Shown here one piece after another: positions 11,438 through 63,998 of a stretch of DNA of 64,000 nucleotides. The DNA comes from Nymphaea colorata (Eukaryota; Streptophyta; Magnoliopsida; Nymphaeales; Nymphaeaceae): the NCBI RefSeq assembly GCF_008831285.2, contig NC_045149.1:11064417-11128416 (forward strand). Direction: 5' to 3'. Under the pieces are notes generated by a model. That model saw only the letters and a program-made list of their open reading frames with translations. It had not been told where the DNA came from and did not search any database. The position numbers and the translations under genes were made by a program. How positions within the stretch are numbered: position 1 is the first letter of the stretch; every line of letters starts with the position of its first letter.

Positions 11438-13075
11438 TCAGTTGGGAGCCGGTAGTTGTATTTCCTCACCACGGCCCTCCGGAGGGGCATATTGTACTGT
11501 CTCTCCTGACGCTTCCTCGAGCGTCTTGCCTTTGGGTTCAGGAAGCACCCAACTGATGAAGAAGCCGAGAGCATTGGTCACCCCCAGGACGATGAGGGCG
11601 TTCTTGATACCAATACCAGGTGGGTAGCCTGGGTCGGTCTGGGTCTTGTCCTTGCTTTGCGCAGCGTAGAGGAACCCGAATGCGCCGATAATAGCACCAG
11701 CTTTGCCGGAGGCAGCGGAGATGCCGTGGCAGGTGCTCCTCACCCTTGCCGGGAAAACCTCCGCTGGAACAACGAAGGTGGTGGTGTTGGGACCAAAGTT
11801 GGCAAAGAAGAAGGTGAGGGAGTACATCACCACGAAGCCGATGCGGTTGTCCTTCTGCTTCCAGTGGTCGTAGGGGATGGCAAGAGCGAACATGAACACG
11901 GTCATGCAGAAGAAGCCTATCAACTGTATAGTAACTCGGCCGATGATGTCGATGAGCGCGATGGTGACCCAGTAGCCGGGAATTGTGGCGCAGAGAGCAA
12001 TCAGGGTCTGTGCGCGTGAAATCCTGTATACCTCTTCGATGGCATTCATGGTCTTGGCTTTAGGGATCCACCCCACGTTAGTCAAGACGTCCTTCTGGAA
12101 CAGGTTCTGGCTGTAGAAAGCAATGTCAAGGAGGAACCATGTGGTGGTTGTGGCCACCAACTGTAAGCCGTGCCTCTGAGCGAATTCTGGGCTAAAGAGG
12201 CCCCATTCCTCGGCTACTCCAACAGGTTGCCTCTCTCTCGGCCTGTGCTCTTGCTCCAAGTTTGCTTCTACAGCGAACCTTTCTCTCCCTATCACCTTCT
12301 GTGCATCTCGCTCTGCTCGCTCCACATCGTGCTTCACCAGAGCCGTATATCTCGGCGGCTCCGGCATCCGTATCCTCCAATAGTACGTGAGAGCTGCAGG
12401 GACGGCGCCGAACATGAGGATGATCCTCCACACGTAGTCGGCCTGATGCACGGTCGAAGCCACCATGTCGTCCTGGTAAGCCGGGGCTGGGTACTTGTGC
12501 CTGAACCCAGCGGAAACCATGAGGGAGATGATCCCGCTGGCCAGGATGCCGAACCCCTGCATGGCAAAGACGGCAGATATGAACGCGCCCCTCGTCTTCT
12601 TGTTGGCGTACTCAGCCATGATGACGGCCGACAGTGGGTAGTCGCCGCCAATGCCGAAGCCAAGCCAGAAGCGGAAGAAGCAAAGGGTCGTCATCACAGC
12701 CTTGGGCTCAGTCGTCAGGGAGAGACCGGAGGCGATGGAGCAGATAACCATCATAATCAGGGTGTACCCGTACACCGTCTTCCTCCCTACCTTATCGCCG
12801 AGCCACCCGAAGAACAGTTGGCCGGCTAGAGTGCCACAAAGAGCGACGCCATTGACGGCAGCAGATACATTGGGGGGCAGCGAACCCGGGCGATCTTTGT
12901 TGCCTTCAAAATAATACAGTCTTCCCAGCAGCTTGGTGCATAGGGAGATGCTGAACAGGTCATAGGCGTCCGTGAAGAAGCCCATCCCCGCGATAACAAT
13001 CGCGCGGAAGTGAAAAGGGCGAGTCTTGGAGCTGTCGAAGGCATCGAGCACCTTGTGCCCGCCGCCGTTTTCCAT
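11438..13075 (-). CDS. PHT1: PHT1 family high-affinity phosphate:H+ symporter
   Basis: One uninterrupted 545-codon frame, within the usual size of plant PHT1 proteins (about 520-560). It belongs to the major facilitator superfamily with about 12 membrane segments and imports inorganic phosphate with protons across the plasma membrane. The family signature [13 protein letters not shown] is at residues 143-155. Positions that bind phosphate or protons in the fungal homologue PiPT are all present: D39, D145, Y146, Q173, W313, D317, Y321 and N430. A charged central loop runs from about 240 to 300, and the C-terminus has the family's [14 protein letters not shown] stretch at 512-525. The chosen start is in a strong context (ACCATGG), and the N-terminus begins [12 protein letters not shown], as in the family. 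No intron is needed. GC content is far above the surroundings, as usual for this gene type. A P1BS box upstream suggests phosphate-starvation control. A dead relative lies at 52.2 kb. I cannot assign the exact PHT1 number. Confidence 0.96.
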
Positions 13076-24307: not shown

Positions 24308-27160
24308 TGATGGGCCTGGCTTGGGCTACTTCTTTGACTCTTGGGCTGGCCTGAGTCGAGCATTGGGGCTCCCGATTCAGCCCAATATATATGTAGTTAG
24401 AACTCATCTCTTCATTTTTTTATCTATTTATATATTCTTCGACATATGATGCCAGCAATCGGCTTATTTAGAAACTTTTGGTTCATCTTTGATGACTCCT
24501 TTAGAAAATCTTTATGTTGTCCATTGCACCCTCAAAAACTAGTCATATGTCATTGCTGGCACTCTTAGGAGCTTTCAACGTCGCTAAGGGTTTCTGAGAT
24601 ATTAAAGTATGAAATATTAAAGATTTTAAATATGGGTGAACATCAAACTGGGTATCCGACGGTTATAAAGTTGACGGTTGGGCTCGACCCGATAACTAAG
24701 CGGGTCGGCATAGGTCGCCCACAAAGACTGCAGGCCAGCCCTAGCATGACGTTTTGCCTTATTTTTCAGCGTTCCCTAGTTTAAAGTTCAGTTGATTCAA
24801 AGAGAGGGGGTACAAGTAACAAAACACATATTATAATGTATGATATGCCAAAGAAAAAATCCTCGTCATTATTAAAATTATGTTGATGTCATGGTCCAAA
24901 AGATCAAAATAGATCAGATGACCGTTCCTCTGGTGCTCAAGTAATTGCCCACCACAAGGTTAAAGATTTATATATGAAAAGTTCCTACCACATCTATAGA
25001 GGTTGTTCACCTCGCCGACTAATGTAAATTACGATGTGTATATAATATAATATAATATAATTTAATAAGCATATATATATATATATGTGTGGGTGTATCA
25101 AAAATTGAGTGGTAATTCTAACATTTTAAAGTTACTCAGCATAAGTCTCTTTGATCCAACATGATGGATGGTTAAGAAAAAAGACAAAGAGAAAAAAGAA
25201 ATGCATTAATTCTCACACTTTTCTTCATGTTTTTCCCTCAACTATCCATCTAGATCAGATTGATGGGCCAGGCTTGGGCTACTTCTTTGACTCTTGGGCT
25301 GGCTTGAGTCGAGCATTGGGGCCCCCAATTCGGCCCAATATATATGTACTTAGAACTCATCTCTTCATTTTTTTATCTATTTATATATTCTTCGACATAT
25401 GATGCCAACAATGGGCTTATTTAGAAACTTTTGGTTCATCTTTGATGACTCCTTTAGAAACTCTTTATGTTGTCCATTGCACCCTCAAAAACTCATCATA
25501 TGTCATTGCTGGCACTCTTAGGAGCTTTCAACGTCGCTAAGGGCTTCTGAGATATTAAAGTATGAAATATTAAAGATTTTAAATATGGGTGAACATCAAA
25601 CTGGGTATCCGACGGTTATAAAGTTGACGGTTGGGCTCGACCCGATAACTAAGCGGGTCGGCATAGGTCGCCCACAAAGACTGCGGGCCAGCCCTAGCAC
25701 GACGTTTTGCCTTATATTTCAGCGTTCCCTAGTTTAAAGTTCAGTTGATTCAAAGAGAGGGGGTACAAGTAACAAAACACATATTATAATGTATGATATG
25801 CCAAAGAAAAAATCCTCGTCAATATTAAAATTATGTTGATGTCATGGTCCAAAAGATCAAAATAGATCAGATGACCGTTCCTCTGGTGCTCAAGTAATTG
25901 CCCACCACAAGGTTAAAGATTTATATATGAAAAGTTCCTACCACATCTATAGAGGTTGTTCACCTCGCCGACTAATGTAAATTACGATGTGTATATAATA
26001 TAATATAATATAATTTAATAAACATATATATATATATGTGTGTGTATCAAAAATTGAGTGGTGATTCAAACATTTTAAAGTTACTCAGCATAGGACTCTT
26101 TGATCCAACAGGATGGACGGTTAAGAAAAAAGACAGAGAAAAAAGAAATGCATTAATTCTCACACTTTTCTCCATGTTTTTCCCTCAACTATCCATCTAG
26201 ATCAGATTGATGGGCCAGGCTTGGGCTACTTCTTTGACTCTTGGGCTGGCCTGAGTCGAGCATTGGGGCTCCCGATTCAGCCCAATATATATGTAGTTAG
26301 AACTCATCTCTTCATTTTTTTATCTATTTATATATTCTTCGACATATGATGCGAGCAATCGGCTTATTTAGAAACTTTTGGTTCATCTTTGATGACTCCT
26401 TTAGAAAATCTTTATGTTGTCCATTGCACCCTCAAAAACTCATCATATGTCATTGCCGGCACTCTTAGGAGCTTTCAACGTCGCTAAGGGTTTCTGAGAT
26501 ATTAAAGTATGAAATATTAAAGATTTTAAATATGGGTGAACATCAAACTGGGTATCTGACGGTTATAAAGTTGACGGTTGGGCTCGACCCGATAACTAAG
26601 CGGGTCGGCATAGGTCGCCCACAAAGACTGCGGGCCAGCCCTAGCACGACGTTTTGCCTTATTTTTCAGCGTTCCCTAGTTTAAAGTTCAGTTGATTCAA
26701 AGAGGGGGTACAAGTAACAAAACACATATTATAATGTATGATATGCCAAAGAAAAAATCCTCGTGATTATTAAAATTATGTTGATGTCATGGTCCAAAAG
26801 ATCAAAATAGATCAGATGACCGTTCCTCTGGTGCTCAAGTAATTGCCCACCACAAGGTTAAAGATTTATATATGAAAAGTTCCTACCACATCTATAGAGG
26901 TTGTTCACCTCGCCGACTAATGTAAATTACGATGTGTATATAATATAATATAATATAATATCATAAGTATATATATATATATATATATATATAAATTGAA
27001 TGGTGACTCTAACTTTTTAAAGTCACTCAACCATTAAACAGGACTGTTTGATCCAACATAACATGATGAACCGGTAAGAAAAAAACAAAGAGAAAAAAGA
27101 AATGCATTAATTCTCACACTTTTCTCCATGTTTTTTCTCAACTATCCATCTAGATCAGAT
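24308..27160. repeat. three-copy tandem array, about 950-bp unit
   Basis: Three near-identical head-to-tail units start at 24308, 25261 and 26208 with TGATGGGCCxGGCTTGGGCT (periods 953, 947 and 953 bp). Each contains a 'ggcccaatatatatgta' phrase, a CTGGGTATCCGACGG block, GGTTGGGCTCGACCCGATAA, the GCCAAAGAAAAAATCC and GACCGTTCCTCTGGTGCTCA landmarks of the older segmental duplication, a TATAATATAATATAAT run, and a closing CTCAACTATCCATCTAGATC. Units differ mainly by single substitutions and by the length of TA runs, so amplification is recent. No unit has a convincing open frame. Confidence 0.95.
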
Positions 27161-28646
27161 TGATGTTTCTGAAATAGCTTGATAATTGTAAATAGCCAGA
27201 GTTACCATATATATATATATATATATATATATAATCAAAGTTATCAAATGTTAGATAATTGTCAAATGTAGATTGTCCACGGCCATAAATCATCGCCAAT
27301 TTCAATGTTCCGATGACTTTTTTTAGCAACAAGTTTTTAAAATTTATTATCCAGCGCAGATTGAGTACACACATATGCAGACACAGATGGCCAGAGAAAA
27401 AAAACAGATGGAGAGAGAAAAAAAGAATGAAAGATATGAATTCGTCGTGACACCTAAAATTGCAACTCACCGAGGCCAACCGAGAAAGGAAGACATCGTC
27501 ATAACTATTTGACCAATTAATACAAAGAAGCGTATGACTAGCCTGTGGATAAAGATTTTTTTTTTTACCTTTTTTTTTTTTCCTTTAATTGAGCGTCTCC
27601 TCCGACCACCAAACCTTACGTAGACAGCGTCAAAGTTCAGCAAATAAAATGGCAAGGTTGAATATTGAAGTGCGATCTTCAGCTTGACACCCTCCAGATT
27701 CCCTTCCGGCTACGTAGTTTAATTTATGTATCAAGCTAAGTGCCAAAGTTACAAACTTGGCAAATAAATTATAGAAGAAATAAAAAACAGTAAATTTAGA
27801 TCATGGAAACCCTCCCTTCTGCGGCTGATATAGAATTAAATATCCACTTGATCTCAGACAAACGTGATTAACAGGATAAATAGATCTATCAGAGGTATCA
27901 ACTCTTTGTGTTGTAAGATGAAAACCACCAGCATGCAAGTTAAAGTGCCGCAGGGGCGACACCCTCAAACACAGAATGCAGGTCATGTACGTTAAGGAGA
28001 TATGAGGGTTTAAGTAGAAACTTCAGCCTCGAACCAACCGGTGGGTCTTCACTGCTCACTCGGAAATACGTATAGATGGTCATTTTATTCAATTCAACTA
28101 TATGTGATTGATCAGGAATATAAATTTTAGATTGTAAAGCCTGCCATATAGAACGTGAACCAAATACAATTAAATTTATCAAATTAAGCAAAGGGATGGA
28201 ATAAAATTTGACTGATGTGAAAAGAATAATTAAATAATTTTTATCCTTTAAGGACGTGCTACATAATAGACTCACAAATAATCATTTTTCAATTGGATGA
28301 GCCGCTTTTGATCTTTAAAAAGGAGGAAGGGGAGGCCCTCTCGGCGTAGTAAAGAAATGACCGAGGGTAGGGTTGGGTATAACCAAAAAAAAAAAAAAAA
28401 AAATTACGCTCATTGCATGCATTATGTTACTTGCATTGAAATAGCAATATCGTTCAAATTAACCATTTTTAGTCGCACTCAACTACTAACACTAATATTG
28501 ATCTGAAAATTAGGAAATGAATTCAAAAAGCAAAAGAACACTGGTTTACGAGGTTTGGTTAGAAAATGGCCTATGTACGTCTGTGATATATACTAAGATC
28601 ATTTTCCATTATGCTTCATTAATGATCAAAACAATAGGGTGCCCAA
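27161..28646. other. no recognisable gene; TA run and A run
   Basis: A (TA)n run lies at about 27207-27233 and an 18-base A run at about 28385-28402. The remaining short frames are low-complexity or have no known domain. Confidence 0.45.
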
Positions 28647-31264: not shown

Positions 31265-32285
31265 ACAGGCTTGTGCACGAAATTTTTGTGTGCGCTTGGA
31301 GTCCACAAATTACGTTCTAATATTGTCTTCAATGAAAATGAAAAACTTATCGCATTGACCTAAATACTCTTTTCGTGTCCAGACTCAATAAAAAAAGAAA
31401 AAATTATTGCCTTGACCTAAATGTCCTTTTATTTCTTTTCCTACTCTCTGTCATGTTATGAAAAATCTGAGCTGAATAAAACTTGGTCATCAAGCACATA
31501 CAAGGAGAAGGTTGAAAGGAAGAAAGAACAGCTTTGTTCATTATGTCTCGCAATCGGTAGTTTCACAATGCCAATGTGTTCTACAAGCTCCAAACTTTTT
31601 TGGTTGGCATTCGATATTTTGACAATGTAAAGGTGTTCTACAGGCTCCCAAATTTTTTTCCAGTGGACATTTGAAATGATTGAACGAATGCTTTAATACT
31701 CTATGAAAATCAACACTACTCGTACATAGGAAGAAAAAGGATAGCCAACTGGTATAGTACTATCACACACACTATTGCAAAGGTGGTCTACAATGAGGAT
31801 ATGCATGGTTCGCACACTTGCTCCTACACTATCACTCACATATAATCGCAAACATATTATTGGTCGTACACAGTCGTATACACTATCATGTGGCTTTTTT
31901 GTGGTGTTTTGTTGTTGACGTAAACTGCATCACAACTCTATCCCACAAACTGTGGTGCTTAATCGTTGATTCTCATACACTACAGATGACATGACTGTCA
32001 TCCATTCATCATCATCTGAAAGCAGCATCGAGCAATCTGATTCGGTAGCAGAAGAATTTAAATGCGTCGAAGAGAACAAGTGTTTGGTACCTGCAGTCAA
32101 TTGCCCATAGGAAAACGTATTGCCCAGCTATTTTTTCCTGATGAAAAATAAATACTACATATGTAAGTGCCGGAAAAGATGAAGGTGTCCGGACCTGTGT
32201 TACTATGGTAGGAATGGTGTTTGACGATGAGTACGATGCTTACTATAATCACTTCAAATTTTTTCAAAAAGACTATGTTCTTTTA
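31265..32285 (+). pseudogene. FAR1/FRS-like gene fragment, copy 1 (with upstream region)
   Basis: At 32208-32257 the plus strand reads VGMVFDDEYDAYYNHF, the start of the FAR1 DNA-binding domain (family VGMxFxxxxxAYxFYNxYA). It is preceded at about 32005-32065 by an acidic/serine stretch (SSSSESSIEQSDSVAEE). The whole segment, including the non-coding-looking 31265-31990, is homologous to 51000-52145 in reverse orientation. FAR1/FHY3-related proteins derive from Mutator-type transposases; some act as light-signalling transcription factors. Stops fall inside (for example near 32100), and nothing of the domain follows the first 16 residues, so it is dead. Confidence 0.72.
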
Positions 32286-43874: not shown

Positions 43875-44501
43875 CAGGGGTGAACAACGAGCCGAGTAAC
43901 TCGAACTCGGCTCGTTAAAGCTCGGCTCAAATGCAAGTTCGAGCCAGCTTTTCTACTCAACGAGCCCAGTTCGAGTTGATTGTTCGGCTCGTTCATTTTA
44001 TCGAGCCAAGCTCGAGTTCGTTTAAAGAAGCTCGCTTAACCCAACTCGGCTCGATAGGTTGGATATTTATGTGTTTCGTCATTGATTCATCTTCATTTTT
44101 TCGTCTTTTTTTCTCTCTCATGCTCGACCTCGAGGCTGTGCCTCTGCCGCTGCCCTTGGTACACCCTCTCTCTATCTACCGTGTTCTTCTATTTCTGCTT
44201 CCTCCTCCTCTTCTCCCACCCACAGACGGTCATCACTTTTTCTTCCTCCTCCTCTTCTCCCACCTAGAGACGGTTGCTACTTCTTCTTCCTCCTCCTCTT
44301 CTCCCACCCAAAGATGGTCGCCTGAGTCAAACATCTTCTTCCCATCCCAAACCCTAACCCTACTCCCAGCCATCACTGCAGGCCCTCCACCGTCCGATCC
44401 ATCCCTCTGGCCACCATTGCCAACCTCGGCCCCGTCCTCCTTCGATTAGCACCGACATCCGGCGATTGGTGGAACGGTTGATGGCAACCAACAATGGTAC
44501 T

Positions 44502-44557
<56 letters not shown>

Positions 44558-45291
44558 AATCAGTGAAAACATGGTTTCTGAAACCCTCTCTCCCTCAAGC
44601 GAGAGATGGGTCCTTTAGTGCTCTCTCTCTCTCTCTCTCATATTCTCTCAAACCTTCGCTCGACCAAAGGTCTGCTCTCTCATACCCTCGCTCGAGGGTC
44701 TGTTCTTGCTCAATTGCTAGAGCAGGTGTTTTGGAAATTGATACCGATTTTAGGTTTTGAGGCTTTCAATCGTTCTTTTTATTCTTTTAAATTTTTGTAA
44801 CTTATGATTGTTCTTCTCCTTTGCAGAACTACCTTCTCCTACTGGCCTCTTCTTCCCCCTTCCACAGTAGCATCTGCTACTGCCGTTTTCTTCCCCCTTT
44901 CATTCTGCTACTAGCCTCTGCTACTGCCGTTTTCTTCCCCCTTTCATTCTGCTACTAGCCTCTTCTTCCCCCTTCCACAGTAGCATCTGCTACTGCCATC
45001 TTCTTCCCCCCTTTCACTTGCACAACAGAAGCATCCATCTTCTTCCTCCTTCCACTTTCACAGCAGAAGCATCTGAAACTATTGCCGTTCTCCCTTCCAC
45101 AGTAGAAGTATCTGGAACAAGCAAATAATCGAGTTAAACGAGTCGGTCGAGTCAATCTCGAGCTTGAACATAATCAATCGAGTCAAGCTCGAGCTACCAT
45201 TGTAAAGCTCGACTCGAGTTCGAGCCGAGCTCGAGCTGACCAAAACAAGAGTCGAGCCGAGCTCGGGCTCGACTCGGTTCGTGTTCAGCCC

Positions 45292-45293
<2 letters not shown>
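43875..45293. mobile_element. non-autonomous hAT-like element of the 52.8-58.1 kb family
   Basis: The left end CAGGGGTGAACAACGAGCC and the right end GGTTCGTGTTCAGCCCTA match the ends of the element at 52801-58069 (TAGGGGTGAACAACGAG and CGTGTTCACCCCTA). Subterminal regions on both sides are dense in GAGCTCGA/TCGAGCTC-type motifs, as in the larger element. The interior has pyrimidine-rich tandem repeats (44190-44330, 44830-45060) and a (CT)n run at about 44503-44555. There is no transposase. The flanks (TGTTATAA and TATATATA) do not form an exact 8-bp duplication, perhaps because a TA run lies at the right border. Confidence 0.7.
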
Positions 45294-50989: not shown

Positions 50990-52145
50990 AAGCATTGTAA
51001 AATATGTAAGTGTCGGTTTCATCATGGAACCACATTCCTACTGTAGGAACTTCACCAATTCCCACACATGCATATGCAATATTATCGTTCATTAATTCAT
51101 AGGGACAATCATTGGGAAACATGTTTTCCTGTAAGCATTAAGTTGTAGGCAATGAACACTGATTTTCTTCGTCATATTCACATTCTTCTACTGCCGAATC
51201 AGATTGTTTACTGCTGCTTTCAAAGGATGATGAAAGGGATACAACCAAGCTATTTGTAGTGCATGAGAATCAATGGTTAAGATCACACACATCAGAAAAG
51301 TGCAATGCAGTGAGTGAGAGTTGAGATAAGTTGTGCGATAATGTGGCATAAGTATGAGCGATAATATGTGTACGACAAAATAATAATAGCGTTTGCGACC
51401 GTATTGGAGAAAGTGTATGTGGTGAGTGTGTGAACCGTAGATAGATTCATCACTGACCACCTATGTGATAATATGTGGGATAGTGTCGTACCTATTGGCT
51501 GTATGTTTTCTTCTTGTGTGCAAGTAGCATTGAGCTTCATAGAGAGTGGAAGCACTCATTTGATTTCTTCAAGGTGTCCATCCGTCAAAAAAAAAATTGA
51601 ACCCTGCAAAATACATTGGCATTGTAAAAATATCAAATGCACACAAAAAAATGAAATGATCAACTGTGATTGGGGGAACATATATATTCACTTCTACCTT
51701 GCTTTTTTTGTCTCATTCCTCACCCACGAGCTCTACAGCTGTTCTTTTCTTTTTTTCTTTCCAACCTTCTCACGATTTCTGCTTGATCACCAAATTTTCT
51801 TCAGTCTGAGTTTTACATAACAAGCCAAAGGATAAAACATGAAAATACAATTAGTTTTGTGCATCGATGCACTAAAAGGGGATGACCAACTTGTCTTCAG
51901 CTCGAGTTTTGCATAACAAGGCAGAGGGAATTATAGGAAAACGTATGTTCTATGCATTCGTACACTAAAAGGGCATTAAGGTCAAGACGATAAATTCTTC
52001 TTTTTATTGTGTTTGTACACCAAAAGGCATTTAAGTTAACGCAATAAATTCTATCTTTAATTGATGACAATATTGGAACCTAATTTAAAATATCTGATAC
52101 CACGTGGCAGCATCATAAGGTTGTGCATGGAACTTTCGTACACAC
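50990..52145 (-). pseudogene. FAR1/FRS-like gene fragment, copy 3 (with upstream region)
   Basis: The minus strand at 51046-50992 reads VGMWFHDETDTYIFYNA, the start of the FAR1 domain. It is preceded (51230-51100) by SSSFESSSKQSDSAVEE and an acidic stretch, matching copy 1 at 31.3-32.3 kb. Homology with copy 1 continues through the region upstream of the coding part, to about 52145 (for example the paired TTGACCTxAATGxCCTTTT phrases). The domain stops after YIFYNA, where the gypsy integrase text begins. That junction suggests that the retroelement inserted there or that a deletion fused the two. Confidence 0.72.
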
Positions 52146-52211: not shown

Positions 52212-52800
52212 GATGGGGTAGCTACAGGTGCTGAAAGCGCTGGATGTGACCAAGACACAGTTGTACCACTTCACGGCCATCGTCATCGCCGGTATGGGTT
52301 TCTACACCAATGCCTATGACGTTTTCTCCATTTTCATCGTTACAAAGCTCCTTGGATGCATTTACTATGAAGATTGCAGAAAACCAGACCACCCAAAATT
52401 GGTTCCCCCAATGTCAATGCCGCTGTGAATGGCATTGCCTCTTTGGCACTCTTGCAGGTCACCTCTTATTTGACTGGCTGATCGACAAGATGTGGAGTAA
52501 GAGGGTGTACGGAATCACCTTCATCCTTAGGTTTGCTTGCTCCATCTTTATCGGCCTGTCCTTTGGGAAGTCCGCCAAGGCTGTCTATGCTTCTTTCGAT
52601 TTTGGATGAGCTTCAACATCGGTAGGGACTACCCACTCTCCACCACCATCATGTCCGAGTATGCCAACAAGAAGACCACAGAGACCTTCATAGCCGCTAT
52701 CTTGGGCATTTAAGTTTTGGGCATCCTGATCGGCAGGATCGTCTTCATCGTTGTCTCAGCCGCATTCATGAACCGTGAACCTCTGCAAGAAAGAAAGCCC
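52212..52800 (+). pseudogene. PHT1 phosphate transporter pseudogene, 5' half
   Basis: From ATG at 52212 the plus strand has a stop at the third codon, then [17 protein letters not shown] and [18 protein letters not shown], clear PHT1 text. The aspartate of TDAYD is asparagine here. A frameshift lies near 52415, after which AAVNGIA, GTLAGHLLFDWLIDKM and KRVYGITFIL follow. A further frameshift near 52600 leads to the signature as [19 protein letters not shown]. It corresponds to the first 190 or so residues of the family. The text is not especially close to the intact gene at 11.4 kb, so it came from another PHT1 member. The hAT element at 52801 splits it; the continuation is at 58070. Confidence 0.92.
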
Positions 52801-53148
52801 TAGGGGTGAACAACGAGTCAAGCTACTCGAGCTCGACTCATTAAAGCTCGGTTCGTAAACAAGTTTGAACCGAGTAATTTGCTTAACGAGTCAACTCGTT
52901 CAAATAATCGAGTCAAGTTCAAGTTTTCTGATTTCAGACTGTTAAAGCTCTACTCGGGTCGATTAATGATGTGTAGCGCCCAACTCGTTTCTTAATTAAA
53001 AAATCGGTTTCGGAATCCTTTGTCTCGGTTTGCCATTTTGTTCTCAATTGTTTCAAAAATGTTTTCCCCCCAATGTAGAAACCTTTATTTGTAAGAAAGC
53101 CCTTCACCCTTCAATTTCAAATGGTTTCAAGCAAGGCACCGCCGCTTT

Positions 53149-53460
53149 GATCTCCCCTTGTTGATCAGGACTGTCGGCGTTGGGTTCTGCCATTCCAGTG
53201 AACCTGGTGGAACACCGGCAGCTCTCTCGTCGCAATGAGCTAGTGAGTACCTCTTTGCCCTTTTGTTCTCTCTATCGTATCAAAATTTTGTTCCCCAAAT
53301 GAAACCCTCATAAGTTTGTTACTCTGCATCATCCTTCAAGGTTTCAGGTGAGCACCGCCGCCTTCAACCGATCTCCCCTTGTTGTCGAGGACCGTCGGCA
53401 TCGGGTTACGCCTTTCCAGTGACCCTGGTAGAACATTGGCAGCTCTCTCATTGCAGGTAG
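53149..53460. repeat. internal tandem duplication in the hAT element, 221-bp offset
   Basis: GATCTCCCCTTGTTG followed by ACxGTCGGC, TTCCAGTGA and GGCAGCTCTCTC occurs at 53149-53237 and 53370-53458 in the same order. Confidence 0.85.
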
Positions 53461-55396
53461 ATATGATACGATTGTAACGTTGAAGCTTCATTCATCATAT
53501 AGATAGATGATTGTGATTTGTGGGTTACTCCTCTCCTTATGTTTCTTCCTTGAGCATTTGTCTATCTGTCATGTCTCTGAACCATTTTCATGTGGTTAGA
53601 AAAGAGATTAGTTGGTGATGTTTTATTGGAATGAAGCTCTCTCTCTCTATCTGCTATTAAATTTCTATGCGTTTAGCCATTATGTTTCTTGAAGTCTCCT
53701 CTCTGGTGTCTTATATGAGAAATGAGTAAAACAGTCCCAAAATGAGACCGGCTTTTCAAGTCTCTTTCCCTGCCAAGGATTCACCAATCTCGTGAATATA
53801 CTTGCAATGGAACTTAATGGAAGGTTAACCCGTAACATGCATGAGAGAATGAGGTTTTAGGTTGCTACACTGCCATTACATTTTACATCAATCCTGAATT
53901 ATTTTATTGTCAGCAGTCTTACCATGCTGCCAATGTTCGCGAACGTCACTTGTTGGCTATGTTAGTTGCCACCTACCATTGCAAAAGGGAAATTATAAGA
54001 GCTCAGTGGAAAGCCTAGCAGAAGGTCAACCATCAGACTCTTAGAGGCAGAACCAATAGTATTCGAGCAAGATTAGAGGAAAACAGGCAATACTATGTAA
54101 TCTACTTTCTTGCTTGAGGCACAGAAAGTGGCTTACTCACCATGTCGCGAAAACAGATAGTGGAAGATTACTAGGCTGTAATCAAGATCAATAGATAAAT
54201 TCTATGCAATCAAGATCAACACTTCATGCTAAAGTATGACACTTAAACATGATATCTAAATATAGTTGATTTGAGCTAATTTTATTTGCATGGTGGATCT
54301 GTTCATTTTGCAGGACCAACAGAACTTGCTATCTCAGAAAAGTCAGTCTCAAAGTGAACCTGTCAAAATCACACTACATGATTTCTTAGCTTGCAAGTTG
54401 TTCTGAGTCCTTTGGTTTTTCCATGTTTAGTTTCTCTTTATAGTTATGTTACCTAACAAAGGTATCATATGAATCAGGATACTTGTTACAATCTTAATTG
54501 TGTAATTCTCATGGAGAGACAGAGTGACAGATATTAGTTTCTGGATCAGCATGTCATTAACTACTTGGATATTTATGTTGTCTGACTTCTTTTTTATCTT
54601 ACAATGGTTGTATAACATCAGCTGAGACTGTGATGCTTCAACAGCAGTGCTTGCAAGAGTTTCTTTCTCCTTTATAATCAAAGAAAAAGTCTGTTATAGT
54701 TTTTGTGTCACCTCAATCAAGAGCATCATTAGCAAACCAAGGTTTCTATCGCAGCCGAAAGCAAACCAAGGTTCTTTTTTTTAGTTAATTTCTCATTGCA
54801 AAGATTCTTTCAGAGGTTCCAACTATTTTGTCTAGGCTTATTTGTTTCATGCAACAACATATAATTTGTACTTAGTTTGCAACTAAACATGTTTGCAATA
54901 CTATAGCAAGGAACTTCTTAAGTTAGTGGAGTCAACACTCTCAAAGGGTGCTCGACCAAGTGGCCAAAGAAAGGTTTCTGATTCTATTGGTGAGTCTTTT
55001 TTTCTTACCATATCTGGTTATTTAGCTACCTGTTAATTATTTGAACACTTCATCTACAAGCTCCCCGACCAAGAGGTGAGTATTGTTACTAAATATGACA
55101 GTCAAGAACTTTAGCATTTCATGAATAAGATTTCATATTCTCTTAGATTGAAATGTGTTTCCGTCAAATTTCATGTTCAAATAGGAGAATAGCTTGAGCA
55201 GAAGGGAAAATTACTTGTTTGAAGAATGATAAATTTAGAAAGAAATATAACTGATAAGGGCAAGCAAGTATGTGATTCGAGACAAAGCTCAGATGATGTC
55301 TCAATCAGAGTACATTTCTCTAATGAAACTCCTATGGATTCGTAAGACACTGAAAATGAAGGAGTTTCAATAGATGCTCATGGAGCACGTGTAAGT

Positions 55397-56199
55397 GGTG
55401 CAAGAAGATCAAGAGCAAAGACTTCTACAATATGGAATGATTTTGACGAGTTAATTATAAATTGTATGAAAAAAAGAAAATGTAAGTACTGCAGTACACT
55501 ATTTATGATAAGTACAGGAGGATCTACATCATCAATGAGAAGACACAAATGTTTGACACGTTTTGCTAACAAAAAGCAAGCGATTTTAAGTTTTAATCTC
55601 GAAATACTTCAGATGTCACGAAGAAGCTTATAGAAATGGGTTCCAACTTCGATGCTCAATCCATAAGAGAGATAATTGCAAAATTAGTGGCAATAAAGCA
55701 GAAGTGGAAATGATAAAACAATCTTTACAAGATGTTTATGAAACTTACATTCAAAGAAATGAAGTAGATGCCAACATTTCTACCATATCAACTAATTCCT
55801 TCAGTATTCAAGGTCGAGAGACTCGAGACACACCACGCGGTGGAAGAAAGCTATTTTTTAAGTTCGTAGGTAAAGCTGAGAATGTTGCTTTTCAAGTCAC
55901 CAAATCTGAGATAGACACATATTTGGAGGATTGATTGATTAAGCATGACGATAATGGTGATGAAGATTCTTTTAATATTTTGTAATGGTGGGAGGATAAA
56001 GAATCCAAGTATCAAATTCTTTCACAAATGGCATGTGATCTGTTGTCAATTCCAATAACTTCTATTGCTTCAGAAAAAACTTTTAGTACAAGAGGTCGCA
56101 TTCTTAATGATAGTTGTAGTTCATTGATACCAAAAACAATTGAAGGTTTGGTTTGTTTGGATAATTGTGTAAAGAATGCTGGATGCATGAAGTGTTAAC
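55397..56199 (+). pseudogene. hAT transposase remnant: BED finger and dimerisation domain, no catalytic core
   Basis: From 55397 the plus strand reads TSTIWNDFDELI, then CKYCSTLF and STSSMRRHKC, a BED-type zinc finger (W, C-x2-C, H-x-C) at about 55420-55560. From 55704 a frame runs to 55934 (through KLFFKFVGKAENVAF). After one stop and a small gap, DLLSIPITSIASEKTFSTRG and a following RILNDSCSSLIPKTIEGLV piece (about 56040-56160) give the hAT C-terminal dimerisation domain, ending at a stop near 56199. Intact hAT transposases have about 650-700 residues; here the finger and the C-terminal domain are only about 50-150 bp apart. The RNase H-like catalytic core with its DDE residues is deleted. 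No transposase activity is possible. Confidence 0.9.
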
Positions 56200-56521
56200 A
56201 AAAGTAAGTACTGGAACAAATTGTATTCATTAAATATTTTATGAATCATTTGTTAATTGACTATATGTATTTCTTTCAGGTTGAGGATGAATCAAGTGAA
56301 TATGTATCATTAGAATGATTCAAGTTGCCTCTTGGTAATGCTTGTTTTTTCTCTTTTTTTGTTTTCTTCTTTTCTTGATCTAATGTGATCTTAGTGTCTG
56401 TTTTTGTTGTCTCTTGCAGTTTTCTACTTTGATGTCAAATGTTCATGACTGTGTGAAGAGCTTCTGTACATGTATGTAACCTGAATTACCTGAAGAGCTT
56501 CTGCGGGCGTGCATGTATGTA

Positions 56522-56566
56522 GTTCTCTCTCTCTCTCTCTCTTTCTCACTCTCTCTCTCTCTCTCT
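56522..56566. repeat. (CT)n microsatellite
   Basis: Two CT runs separated by TTCTCA, inside the hAT element. Confidence 0.95.
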
Positions 56567-57000
56567 CAGCCTGATTGGCAATCAAGCCTCTTGGCCCTGA
56601 CCTGGTAACAAGATTGAACAGGCAGATGCTGGTAAGCAAGGTAGCTCTAGCCTACTAAAGGCTGGGCCTGCATTTTTTTTGAACTTTCTATCAGAATGCA
56701 TGGCTGTGCTTGGTCAGCAACCTTTGAGAAGCAGTTTAAGGATGTCTTGACTGCGAGGACTGAGGTTGAGGCTCATGGACTTTGGTGGTCTTAACTATAT
56801 CTTCTGTTACTTAAGAAGTCCCTAAGCATTATGTTTTCCTTGCAGAATCTAAAGGCTCATGAATCTAGGTGACAAATTTTCATATCTCAACATTTCTTGA
56901 TGTCTCTTTATTTGTTTCCTGTTATCAGCCTTTCTCTTTGTTTTTTCTGAACAGATTATCTTCAAGTGGAGTCTCAAATGGAAGCCAGCTGAGGCATAAA

Positions 57001-57330
57001 AGAAGAGCCTATGTTTATGGTGAACTTGCATAGCACAGAAACACTAAAATATCTGCATGTGGATGGGAAGGATGGCTCAAAGACATATTAAACCCATTGA
57101 GTTGATGTTCTCTGCAAAAGAATTTGCATTTAAATATTTTCTTTGTTGGGATAAAAAAAAGCTACAAAGAAGAGCCTATGTTTATGGTGAACTTGCTTAG
57201 CACAGGTACACAGAAATATCTGCATGTAGATGGGCAGTATGGCTCTGAGACACTATTAAACCCATTGAGTTGATGTTCTCTACAAAGGAATTTGCATTTA
57301 AATATTCTCTTCGTCGGTATCAAGAAAATT
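57001..57330. repeat. two-copy tandem repeat, 167-bp unit, in the hAT element
   Basis: AGAAGAGCCTATGTTTATGG starts at 57001 and 57168. Both copies carry AACCCATTGAGTTGATGTTC and end in TTTGCATTTAAATATT. Copies differ at about one base in ten. Confidence 0.92.
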
Positions 57331-57577
57331 GTTTGCTAGGTTAATTTAGAAGAAAAGACGGATGAATTTTGTGTCATAGTATCATTTTCCAGCAGAAAGG
57401 GAAAATGTAGAATCCAGCTGATGTCTTCAACTGTTGAATCGTCTCCAGCACCTTTATAAGGTCCAATGACAAGCGGCTAGGCCCTCTGGCCTCTAGAGGA
57501 GAAAGCCGCTACCTTTGGAGATGTTACTCTTCCCACCACTGTATCGGGTGAGCTCAACTTTGCAAATGGGTTCTTGT

Positions 57578-57579
57578 CA

Positions 57580-57626
<47 letters not shown>

Positions 57627-57678
57627 TATATATATATATGTGTGTGTATATATACACACACACATATATATATATCAG
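57578..57678. repeat. (TA)n/(CA)n microsatellite
   Basis: Alternating TA and CA/TG runs of about 100 bases near the right end of the hAT element. Confidence 0.95.
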
Positions 57679-58069
57679 TTAAACAGCGGAATCTTATATT
57701 AATGAAGCATCTCCAAGAATATAACATATCTGTAACACAACTTGATTAGCAAAAGTAGAAGATTAAGCCGGGAAAAAAATAAATCCCCACCATGATGACA
57801 TAATATAGTTATACGATGAGTATCAAACGCGTTTGTCGAGCCTTAATTGAGTCAAGCTCGAGCTCAGCAAGTAACGATGAGTATCAAACGAGTTTGTCGA
57901 GCCTTAATCAAGTCAAGCTTGAGCTCAACATGTGACTGCCGAGTCAAGCTCGAGCTGCTGTTGTTGAGCTATTCTCAAGCTCGAGCCGAGTCGAGCTTAA
58001 GGTTTCCTTTAGTTGAGCCGAGTTCGAGCTGACTGAACTTGGGCTCAACTCGGCTCGTGTTCACCCCTA

Positions 58070-58096
58070 GAAAGCCCTATTGGCTCGACTGTCCCT
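58070..58096 (+). pseudogene. PHT1 pseudogene, continuation after the hAT element
   Basis: When one copy of the 8-bp duplication is disregarded, the text on the two sides of the transposon joins into SPIGSTVP followed by a stop. The PHT1 family has PxGSTVPQADYVWR at this place, just after the sixth membrane segment. The match ends within a few codons, and a purine-rich stretch follows. Confidence 0.75.
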
Positions 58097-59689
58097 TAGG
58101 ATTTGTATGGATGGAAGGAAAAAGAGGAAGGAAAGGAAATGAAAGGATTTGCTAATCGTGTGATTAGATGGAGGGAGTAGAAAAGAAGGGGAGGAAAAGA
58201 AATGGCGTTGTTGGGTTATTTTTAATCCCTCCAAAAGTGGAACGATTGAAGGAAGATCTTCAAAATGACTATTCTATCCTCATTATTTGAGCCCCTTTTG
58301 GACTAAATGAAGGAAAGGAAAAAAAAAAGATGGAAAGAAAAGAAAAGGTAAGGGAAAGAAAAGGAAAAGAAATAAAAGGGAAAAAAGTGGATGGTTAAAA
58401 ATGCTTGTTTGGATAGAATGGAAAAAAATAAAAAAAGTGTTGAAATCATGTTTGCGTAGGCTATATAAAGGAAAAGGAAAGAGGAAAAATTAAGTTGGTT
58501 TATAATAATGCCTCAATAGTTGATAGCGAATATGATACTTCAATTTATATCATATAACTAATATAATATACCAACTTTAAATTAAATAGGTACCACCCTA
58601 AAAAAATACTGAATTTATTTTATTAATGTTTAATTTCTAAAATCGTTCATCCAATTTTTTTAATTTGTTGCCATGTACAGTCCACCTATATTTTCTAGTG
58701 TCCATGCATATACATATATATGTTTTTTTATATTTATATGTATAGGTGATGAATTTTGGTTAGTTAAATTGTATCATTTCTGTCATGAAACTTACATGGA
58801 AAACTAACGATCTACATTGGCATATCCAAGAAGAAAGAAGAATTCATGTTGAAGTATAAATCATGATTTTTACTGCTCCAAAATTGTAAACCAACGTCTG
58901 GAAACCAATTCACTATGTTTATTATTTTCAGGCAATAAAGCCTTTGAATGTTCATGATATCTTGAATGTGGTCATTTTGGTTTTTGTTCTTGGAAATCAG
59001 TTTTTAAAGTTCCTATCGTCTTTTGTTTGAAAGACACAGAAGTTTAGTCAGTTGAGCGGGTTGAGGGATAAGAATAGGAAAGATCATTTCCTATCTACTA
59101 CAAATCCAATCTGATGCCTTTCATTTCTTAATTTTTCCTTTTTTTTGCCTGTCCTCATATTTTTTGCTTTCTGGGGCTCATCTGAGTGACGTGTGCGGCA
59201 CATTATAGTTCATGATGTATATTTTGATTCATCCTATTGGCTCTGCCTAGCCCCAATGGATATAATACTTTATTGGATAATATTAATTTACTTGAATTAA
59301 TTATACGTAAGTAAACTTGGATAAAAATAAAATCTAGAATAAGGCACCATAAGGGTTTGATTTGTGAAATAAAAATAAAAATGGTATAATACGTCTCCAC
59401 AAGGACTGATGAATATTAAAATGCTTTTTCTGGTATCATTTTCTTATGGTCACGTTGAAAACAGAGACCCTTTATTCGGCTTTCTTTTATACAGACTAGG
59501 GTTAGACTCTTAACTAAAATCTATTTTGTTTACAGTGGGATGCTTGGCAGCTGGGAACATCTCCATGCTCTCTTTGATTGTCGTGGCATTCTTTTCACTC
59601 AACGTCTTTACCCAGTTGGCTCTCTCTCCAGTCATTAACCAGTCTACTTGCCTTCTCTTCAGTTATCCTTGACAGCCCAAAAGTTAATT
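58097..59689. other. no gene; purine-rich then AT-rich
   Basis: 58100-58480 is made of GGAAAGGAAA-type text in two related blocks (58100-58260 and 58290-58480), each with a GAxTxxATGGAxGGAAxG-like start; this may be a diverged MITE-like repeat. 58480-59690 is AT-rich without recognised coding. Confidence 0.4.
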
Positions 59690-61059: not shown

Positions 61060-63998
61060 CCTATATGAGTTACATGTTTTGAAAACAAGTCTTCAGATAT
61101 TCCCTTAGTTAAGGGATCGGCTACCATATCATTGGTAGGCAAATAATTAACTGAGATTTCATTTTTCTCAATCATTTCATTAACATAATGGTATTTTACC
61201 ATGATATGTTTACTCTTTGAGCTAACAGCTCAATTCTTCATAAGAGATATCGCTGTCTGATTATCACAGTACAGTTGAACTGGTTCATGAACAAGATCCA
61301 ATTTCAAGTCTTTCAAGAACCGACTTATCCAGACGGTAAAAGTAGTTGCAACATTACATGCTACATACTCTGCTTCTTGAGTGTATTGAGCAACACATCC
61401 ATGTTTCTTACAGGACAAGGCTATCGCTCCACCTCCAAAAATGAAAACATACCTTGAAGTAGACTTACTATGATCTTTGCATCCTGCAAAATCTGCATCA
61501 GAATAGCTAACTAAAGTTAGCTCATCTGCTTAATAGGACAATTTCAGTCCTTTCATTCCTTTAATATACCAAAAAATCCTTTTGACTGCTTGCCAGTGAG
61601 GCCATCCAGGATTACTTTAATAACGATTCACCAGACTGATAGGAAAGCTTATGTCTGGTCTAGTACAAAACATTAAATACATCAGACTGCCCAAAGCTTG
61701 TGCATATGGAACACTTAATTTATGTTGTCCTTTAGTAGGACAATCACTCCTACTCAAATTTGCTCCTTTAGCTATAGGAGTCCCAATTGGTTTGCAGTCT
61801 AACATACGAAATTTCTTCAAGATATAATCAATATATCATTCTTAGCTTAAACTCAAGATTCTTGAGTTTCTATCTCGAGTGATCTTTATTCCTAATATAT
61901 AAGATGCTTCACCCAAGTCCTTCATTTCGAAGTTCTTGTTCAGCCATGTCTTCGTTTTGAATATCATGTCGTTATCATTTCCTGTTAGTAATATGTCATC
62001 AACATATAATGATAGAATATAGAAAATGCTCCCACTTTTCCAGACATATACACAGTGGTCTAGTTGGTTTGCAACAAACCCAAGTTTTGTAATTGCTTTG
62101 TGAAAAGCAAAATACCATTGTCTAGGCGACTGTTTCGATCCGTACAACCATTTATTCAGCTTGTACACTTTGTCTTCCTTTTCCTTGACAACATACCCTT
62201 GTGGTTGAGTCATGTATATAGTTTCTTTCAACTCACCATTTAGGAAAGTAGTCTTCACATCCATCTGACAAATATCCAAGTCATAGAATGCTACGATAGC
62301 CAAAATTATTCGAATTGATGCAAACTTTGCAACTGGCGAATAGGTTTCTGAGTAGTCAATTCCTTCCTTTTGGGAAAAACCTTTCGCCACCAGTTTGGCT
62401 TTGAATTTTTCGACTGATCCGTCAGCCTTATACTTCTTCCTTAACACCAATTTGCATCTAATGAGTTTTCTATCACTAGAAAGATCTACTAATTCCCAAA
62501 CTTTATTGTTTTCTATGGATTCAATTTCTTCATCCATAGCATTCATCCAATCCGATCATTCATGCGAGCTTATGGCTTCGTCATATGTCAGATTGTCAGA
62601 CATTTCGTCAATATCTGCTGAATAGCATAGCTCCTCTGTCAGATATACATAATAATCATTCAAATATGAAGGAGGAGCTCTAGGTCTTTTATGACCTAAT
62701 AACATCTGAGATGACGAGGTAGTCGGATCAGTTGGTTCATTACCAGACTGTTTCTCAGACGATTCCTGCCCAGTTGGTTCATTGCCAAACTGATCTCCAG
62801 TAGGTTCATTACCACACTGTTCCTCTGAATAAATCAGATCATCCAGTGTATCATTTCGATATTCAACTAGATCAAAATCTTTGTTATTGAGTTCTTCTAT
62901 GAACTCTACATCTCTCCTTTCCATAAGTCTCATAGTTGAATGATATAATTTGTAGCCATTGGATCCCTTTGGATATCCAATAAATACACATCTTACTGAT
63001 CTGTTATCTAGTTTATCCATTTTTGGATCTAGAATTTTCACGTGTGCTAGAGATCCCCATCTCTTCAGATGTCTCAGATCTGGTTTTACACCAGTCCATC
63101 TCTCATAAGGAGTGGTTGGGACTGCTTTGCAGGGCACTCGATTTATTGTATACATAGTTGTTAACACAGCTTCACCCCAAAAAACTTTTGGTAATTGTGC
63201 ACCTGTCAACATGGATCTCACCATGTTCAAGAGAGTTTTGTTACACCTCTTAGCCACACCATTATGTTGTGGTGTTCTAGGCATTGTCTTTTCCCTATTA
63301 ATACCAAGGTCTTTATAGTATTTGAAGAATTCATTAGATGTGTATTCTCCTCCTCGATCAGACCTTACAACTTTAATATACCTCCCAAGTTGTCTCTCGA
63401 CTTTAGATTTGTATTTCTTGATTTTTTCAAGTGCTTCTGACTTGTGTCTAATCAAGTGTATATAACCAAATCTTGAGAAGTCATCAATAAACGTTGTGAA
63501 GTATAACTTGCCACTATGAGTTTGAACTCTAAAAGGTCCACATATATTAGTATAGATTATCTCCAATAGTTCAGTGGCCCGAATTACTTCAGACGGAAAC
63601 GATTTCCTTATCATCTTTTTGTATACACACGACTCGCATTTCGCGAAATCATTTGTATTTATGTCAGATATTAAACCCTGTTGTGCTAGAGTCTTCATCT
63701 TTTTTATGCTTATATGGCTTACTCATGCCATAAGTTTACATTGACACTCATTGCACAATCGTAATAAGCAGAACTCATTAAGTTTGAACATGCCATGTTC
63801 TTTTACAAATTTTTCATGGAACATGGACCTTCCATGTTTTCCCACTATTACTTTTCTTGGAATAAATCGAACTTCAAAACCTTTTCCAGTTAGTGCGGGA
63901 ACAGACACAAGATTCCTTCTCATGGAAGGGACATACAAAACCTCATTGAGTACGACACTAGTATCCCAACATTTAGTCGATATGCCCCAACTCTCATG
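61060..63998 (-). pseudogene. Ty1/copia pol, one frame with nonsense changes
   Basis: All domains lie in one reading frame. Pre-integrase: VPSMRRNLVSVPALTGKGF (about 63935-63880) and the zinc motif end CESCVYKK. Integrase core: TNICGPF (about 63545), RSDRGGEY (about 63365) and NGVAKRCNKTL (about 63262), followed by WTGVKPDLRHLKRWG and VFIGYP. RT: KYKADGSVEKFKAKLVAKGF, DICQMDVKTTFLNGEL, and the catalytic LYVDDILL near 62000. RNase H: SYSDADFAGCKDHSKSTS (about 61510), EAEYVA and YCDNQTAISLMKN (about 61265), ending near 61060. Stops break the frame at about 63720, 62554, 61843, 61837, 61615 and 61227; most look like CGA or CAA changed to TGA or TAA. The RT box is intact. The first integrase aspartate is N and the last glutamate is K, so the enzyme could not integrate DNA. 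Confidence 0.92.

Follow-up and report, generated by a model that had tools for sequence, protein, structure and literature searches.

Known systems close to the element reported here include the Ac/Ds transposons of maize. In the excerpts of PMC3260210, Ac was described as generating 8-bp duplications and as carrying 11-bp inverted ends with hexamer arrays no more than 200 bp from either end, and 44 Ds-l3 elements of maize B73, which contain transposase fragments, were described as decaying Ac. The hAT elements of grapevine have ends of 8–23 bp and 8-bp duplications (PMC2528002, in excerpt), and the Hermes transposase has a total length of 612 residues (PMC10368747, in excerpt). In the present study, we analyzed a stretch of 64,000 nucleotides from Nymphaea colorata (NC_045149.1, positions 11,064,417 to 11,128,416; hereafter the window), in which a hAT-type element lies at a degenerate phosphate transporter gene of the PHT1 family. 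The results make it highly probable that a hAT element with Ac-like ends inserted into the PHT1 copy and duplicated GAAAGCCC, that the element is now a transposase-dead deletion derivative, and that what remains of PHT1 is a 5' fragment broken at several points.

The element and its borders were as follows, with positions counted from the first base of the window.

52801 to 58069, plus strand: defective hAT-type DNA transposon of 5269 bp (ends, duplication and hAT C-terminal domain)
52801 to 52812, plus strand: left terminal inverted repeat TAGGGGTGAACA (direct reading)
58058 to 58069, minus strand: right terminal inverted repeat, the reverse complement of TAGGGGTGAACA (direct reading)
52793 to 52800, no strand: left copy of the target site duplication GAAAGCCC, 8 bp (direct reading; the sole such pair in the chance scan)
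58070 to 58077, no strand: right copy of the target site duplication GAAAGCCC, 8 bp (direct reading)

The terminal inverted repeats paired at 12 of 12 bases, with the pairing ending at base 13, and GAAAGCCC abutted both ends of the element with 8/8 bases identical. A chance scan was performed for exact 12-bp inverted pairs with a spacing of 300–12,000 bp and identical 8-mer flanks, from which simple-repeat 12-mers were dropped. The pair at 52801/58069 was the sole match in the window, and the same scan recovered no pair from 30 Markov-1 simulated windows. The ends of hAT elements are short inverted repeats of the YAGGG type, to which TAGGGGTGAACA conformed with its 12/12 pairing, and the 8-bp target site duplication expected of the superfamily was present as GAAAGCCC on either side. 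The 12-bp length of TAGGGGTGAACA also falls inside the range of 8–23 bp given in the excerpt of PMC2528002. These results confirmed the original prediction of a 5269-bp element with matched ends and an exact duplication. Its assignment to the hAT superfamily was likewise borne out by the 8-bp duplication, the 12-bp inverted ends and the hATC domain described below.

Both ends of the element were rich in the motif CGAGY (CGAGC or CGAGT, counted on either strand).

52801 to 53060, no strand: left subterminal region with 11 CGAGY motifs in 260 bp, on both strands (motif count)
57810 to 58069, no strand: right subterminal region with 16 CGAGY motifs and a 61-bp tandem duplication at 57813–57934 (motif count)

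Compared with the 11 and 16 motifs in the left and right 260 bp, the 4749-bp interior contained 4, and the background, from which both this element and a second one described below were excluded with their surroundings, had a mean of 0.31 and a maximum of 4 per 260-bp segment (n = 2824). By analogy with the hexamers of Ac and the repeats of Hermes, the CGAGY arrays are likely to be transposase binding sites. The element resembled maize Ac/Ds, especially Ds-del and Ds-l3, in its short inverted ends, 8-bp duplication and subterminal arrays, and also in its size (4.6 kb for Ac) and the transposase fragments inside it, a likeness of structure (PMC3260210, in excerpt). It differed in that Ac/Ds elements are described there with 11-bp ends and AAACGG motifs, whereas this element has 12-bp TAGGGGTGAACA ends and CGAGY arrays. 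The different arrays suggest another hAT lineage than Ac.

Two transposase remnants were detected inside the element.

55427 to 55546, plus strand: weak BED zinc finger remnant (Pfam PF02892)
55908 to 56162, plus strand: hAT C-terminal dimerisation domain (hATC) remnant with internal stops at 55932 and 55983 (PF05699)

The open part from 55986 contained the hATC domain, matching PF05699 with an E-value of 3.7e-19 and 68.7 bits (cut-off 21.4), and the whole of 55908–56162, read through its two stops, gave an E-value of 2.3e-23. This remnant also matched the Hermes transposase (PDB 4d1q, 6dww, 2bw3 and 8edg; E 2.6e-10 to 3.2e-10) and aligned with residues 460–530 of the 4d1q chain. As in Hermes, a BED-like piece was located upstream of hATC, here in a different frame; unlike in Hermes, the part between BED and hATC was mostly missing, the gap being 361 bp only, and the frame was broken. 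No match to a transposase core domain was found in the element stretches scanned. A complete transposase with a catalytic core, which would mark an autonomous copy rather than superfamily membership, was not present, given the frame change and the stops. The core between BED and hATC is apparently missing from the remnant as it can be read in the sequence, and we read the element as a broken deletion derivative that would be unable to make an active enzyme. Two points weigh against our interpretation here: the BED match was weak (E 0.0083; 16.6 bits, under the curated cut-off of 20.6), and the catalytic residues were not located by domain scans that covered part of the element's open stretches.

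Gene capture of the Pack-hAT type was examined by domain scans of open stretches lying away from the transposase region, 15 of the 63 listed in the element. No Pfam match above the cut-off was found in these 15 stretches, and one of them gave a weak B9-C2 match (E 0.014, below the cut-off). Capture is thus unsupported rather than excluded, because only part of the 63 stretches was scanned. A tandem duplication of about 163 bp with 88% identity was also observed inside the element at 56999–57328, and the reading frame at 57106–57270 within it had no protein family match.

The sequence to the left of the element was compared with an intact PHT1 gene in the same window.

52213 to 52800, plus strand: 5' part of a PHT1 pseudogene, residues ~8–203 (tblastn, frameshift-tolerant alignment and TIGR00887)
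11441 to 13075, minus strand: intact PHT1-type phosphate transporter gene of 545 codons, the in-window reference (TIGR00887 and PDB 9kmq)

The left flank matched the intact gene by tblastn with an E-value of 7.5e-32, and its read-through translation matched TIGR00887 with 170.3 bits (E 7.1e-50), indicating a member of the PHT1 family. This score lies under the full-length cut-off of 610.3 because the left part is a 185-residue fragment, as expected. The intact gene gave 703.1 bits against TIGR00887 (E 2.2e-211) and an E-value of 2.8e-182 against PDB 9kmq (Inorganic phosphate transporter 1-11). Both the left flank and the intact gene therefore match the plant PHT1 transporters, from which the copy at 52213 differs in being a truncated pseudogene. 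By direct reading, an ATG at 52213, presumably the start codon of the pseudogene, is followed by an in-frame TAG at 52219. Frameshift-tolerant alignment placed frameshifts near 52375, 52437 and 52583 and a TAA stop at 52711, and the frame changes once more between 52783 and 52790. The PHT1 copy thus carries a stop and frameshifts of its own, independent of the insertion, as had been claimed for it. Over 182 residues, the pseudogene was 57% identical to the intact gene and 55% identical to the 9kmq protein. Being about equally distant from the two, it gives no appearance of having been copied recently from the 11441–13075 gene. When viral contigs were searched with the intact PHT1, three stretches fit a pattern and none was a relative.

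The PHT1 reading appeared to continue to the right of the element.

58078 to 58113, plus strand: likely PHT1 continuation, comprising the end of SPIGSTVP, a TAG at 58097 and a possible FVW (profile and base-match tests)

When the flanks were joined with a single copy of GAAAGCCC, they read SPIGSTVP followed by the TAG stop. At its expected position in TIGR00887, SPIGSTVP scored 7.9 bits more than masked residues did; the gain was 10.8 bits for the full 15-residue tail and 24.3 bits for the paralog's own residues. Control 8-mers (two shuffles and one unrelated) gave −0.4, −0.6 and −1.4 bits and the reversed 15-mer −2.3 bits; FVWM, in another frame, gained 6.9 bits and DLYGWK 3.3 bits. With the broken left part in front of it, the tail gained 6.1 bits versus 4.3 and 2.5 bits for two control tails, the former of which has the same first two residues as the true tail. 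At the base level, with placement allowed within 10 bases of the expected position, 19 of the first 36 bases of the right flank matched the paralog, a number reached by 65 of 20,000 random 36-mers (P ~0.003), and 14 of the first 24 bases matched, which was reached by 110 of 20,000. Because these tests were positive and the duplication is exact, the PHT1 sequence likely runs on from one flank to the other, but this is of modest statistical strength and is not proved. The original prediction had held that PHT1 text across the join proves both the insertion and the earlier presence of the PHT1 copy. SPIGSTVP can indeed be read and insertion into a pre-existing PHT1 is supported, but the text spans only ~24–36 bp at modest significance and "proves" is too strong. 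A literature search for PxGSTVPQ, the family motif quoted in the original prediction, returned no match.

The remainder of the PHT1 gene was not recovered. Residues ~218–545 were not found between 58078 and 64000, the window edge, by tblastn or frameshift-tolerant alignment; the latter scored 44 on one strand and 47 on the other, whereas a single shuffled sequence reached 50 and the intact gene 1738. A full-length PHT1 copy was not present at this site up to the window edge, about 60% of the gene not being found, and the element is not seen to divide a pseudogene whose two halves would together be complete. The missing residues imply a second break ~20–40 bp to the right of the element, which was not part of the original prediction. 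The target thus either was, or later became, a 5' PHT1 fragment with the element near its broken end. Purine-rich stretches of the GGAAGGAAA type were observed at 58096–58480, beginning where the PHT1 text fades, and may mark the border of another repeat. When the first 15–20 bases of this sequence were used to look for an inverted partner, the shortest query gave a single reverse match with 3 mismatches, located at 63931, and the longer queries gave none at that level.

We propose that a hAT-superfamily element with Ac-like ends entered the PHT1 gene copy by cut-and-paste, a step taken from its membership in the hAT family, since the duplication and the ends are what is observed. The insertion duplicated the 8-bp target GAAAGCCC. 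To judge from the remnants, the element formerly encoded a BED-hATC transposase, which would have been lost either before the jump, in which case the element would have been mobilised in trans, or after it. A separate event at ~58096–58115 probably removed the 3' part of PHT1 or displaced it past the window edge.

The order of insertion and decay was evaluated from the divergence of the pseudogene. Over the 182 aligned residues, with gaps and X dropped, the pseudogene had 35 differences of its own and the two intact PHT1 proteins had 17 and 21. At 2.25 replacement sites per codon, the excess of 14–18 corresponds to ~0.03–0.045 neutral substitutions per site (hand estimate). At this divergence, the chance of an unchanged 8-bp duplication would be ~0.5–0.6 and that of all 20 matching pairs remaining unchanged ~0.15–0.3 (hand arithmetic). 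We give about an even chance to insertion into a PHT1 copy in which decay, and perhaps truncation, had taken place beforehand. The perfect ends and duplication beside a heavily decayed target, and the fading of the PHT1 text 24–38 bp to the right of the site, are consistent with this order, although the truncation may be later and the rate arithmetic is indecisive. We give tentative credence to the alternative that the PHT1 copy was still intact when the element killed it and that the other lesions came later. The lesions leave the order unfixed, and the chances just calculated for the duplication and for the 20 pairs are compatible with such an early insertion; the three frameshifts, the TAA and the further frame change upstream, set beside unchanged ends and duplication, argue weakly against it. 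The evidence leans slightly towards insertion after the onset of PHT1 decay, the unchanged duplication and ends not being decisive for dating. Since it was the perfect ends that drew attention to the element, this lean is subject to bias.

A different explanation is that the right flank is not PHT1 at all, the element lying at a rearrangement break or the PHT1 copy having ended at the target, with SPIGSTVP arising by chance. Several results weigh on this side and against a PHT1 reading across the join. In frameshift-tolerant alignment to the divergent paralog, the right flank added 1 point, and 229 of 1500 random flanks did as well; for the right flank taken alone, 166 of 1500 reached its score. 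The short joined peptides (57 and 54 residues) had no family match in NCBIfam. Single 18-base blocks were also weak: the scores of the first two were reached by 287 and 948 of 4000 at differing shifts (1 and 5), and eight blocks past 58113 showed no signal continuing in register, so that the PHT1 signal faded by ~58115. The left flank held one shift (−4) through ten consecutive 18-base blocks (52585–52764). However, the exact 8-bp duplication at both ends implies a simple insertion, and the in-register gain of SPIGSTVP (+7.9 bits) and the base match reached by 65 of 20,000 also speak for PHT1, leaving a non-PHT1 right flank very improbable. An assembly artefact at one join is practically negligible as an explanation, as the window contains 0 N, both junctions fit a hAT insertion to the base, and no sign of an artefact was found at either join.

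Here a defective hAT element, with borders exact to the base, sits in a nutrient-transporter gene that has decayed, which makes the locus a clean example of its kind. The insertion may be of use for telling accessions apart, as a marker, and may provide an event that can be dated in the history of the PHT1 family of Nymphaea colorata. Such an event is ordinary for plant genomes, and knowledge of hAT elements and PHT1 genes is unchanged by it. Among the matches listed in the literature search, as excerpted there, none reported a hAT insertion in a PHT1 pseudogene.

A second element with similar ends was found in the window.

43875 to 45293, no strand: second, shorter hAT-type element of 1419 bp with ends CAGGGGTGAACA / TGTTCAGCCCTA

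Its ends were near-identical to those of the 52801–58069 element, with one base different per end, and it contained 17 CGAGY motifs on the left, 19 on the right and 2 in the interior. No target duplication of 6–9 bp was found around it, and its right flank is a TA microsatellite run. It is conceivable, if rather unlikely, that both elements belong to a hAT lineage that was active recently and has an end code of its own (CGAGY, not AAACGG), and that long copies of this lineage, although they lack the core, are still mobilised by an enzyme acting in trans. Caution is called for in this respect because the comparable maize Ds-l3 and Ds-l4 elements that were tested showed no response to Ac, according to the excerpts of PMC3260210.

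Elsewhere in the window, no RNA family reached its gathering threshold. A unit of ~953 bp was present in three head-to-tail copies with ~95% identity at 24308–27165, and remains of a Copia-type polymerase (RVT_2, integrase core and gag pre-integrase) occupied two adjoining open stretches on the minus strand at 61842–63722. In addition, 31596–32126 and 51113–51651 formed an inverted pair of ~550 bp with 66% identity, and are perhaps two old copies of one repeat.

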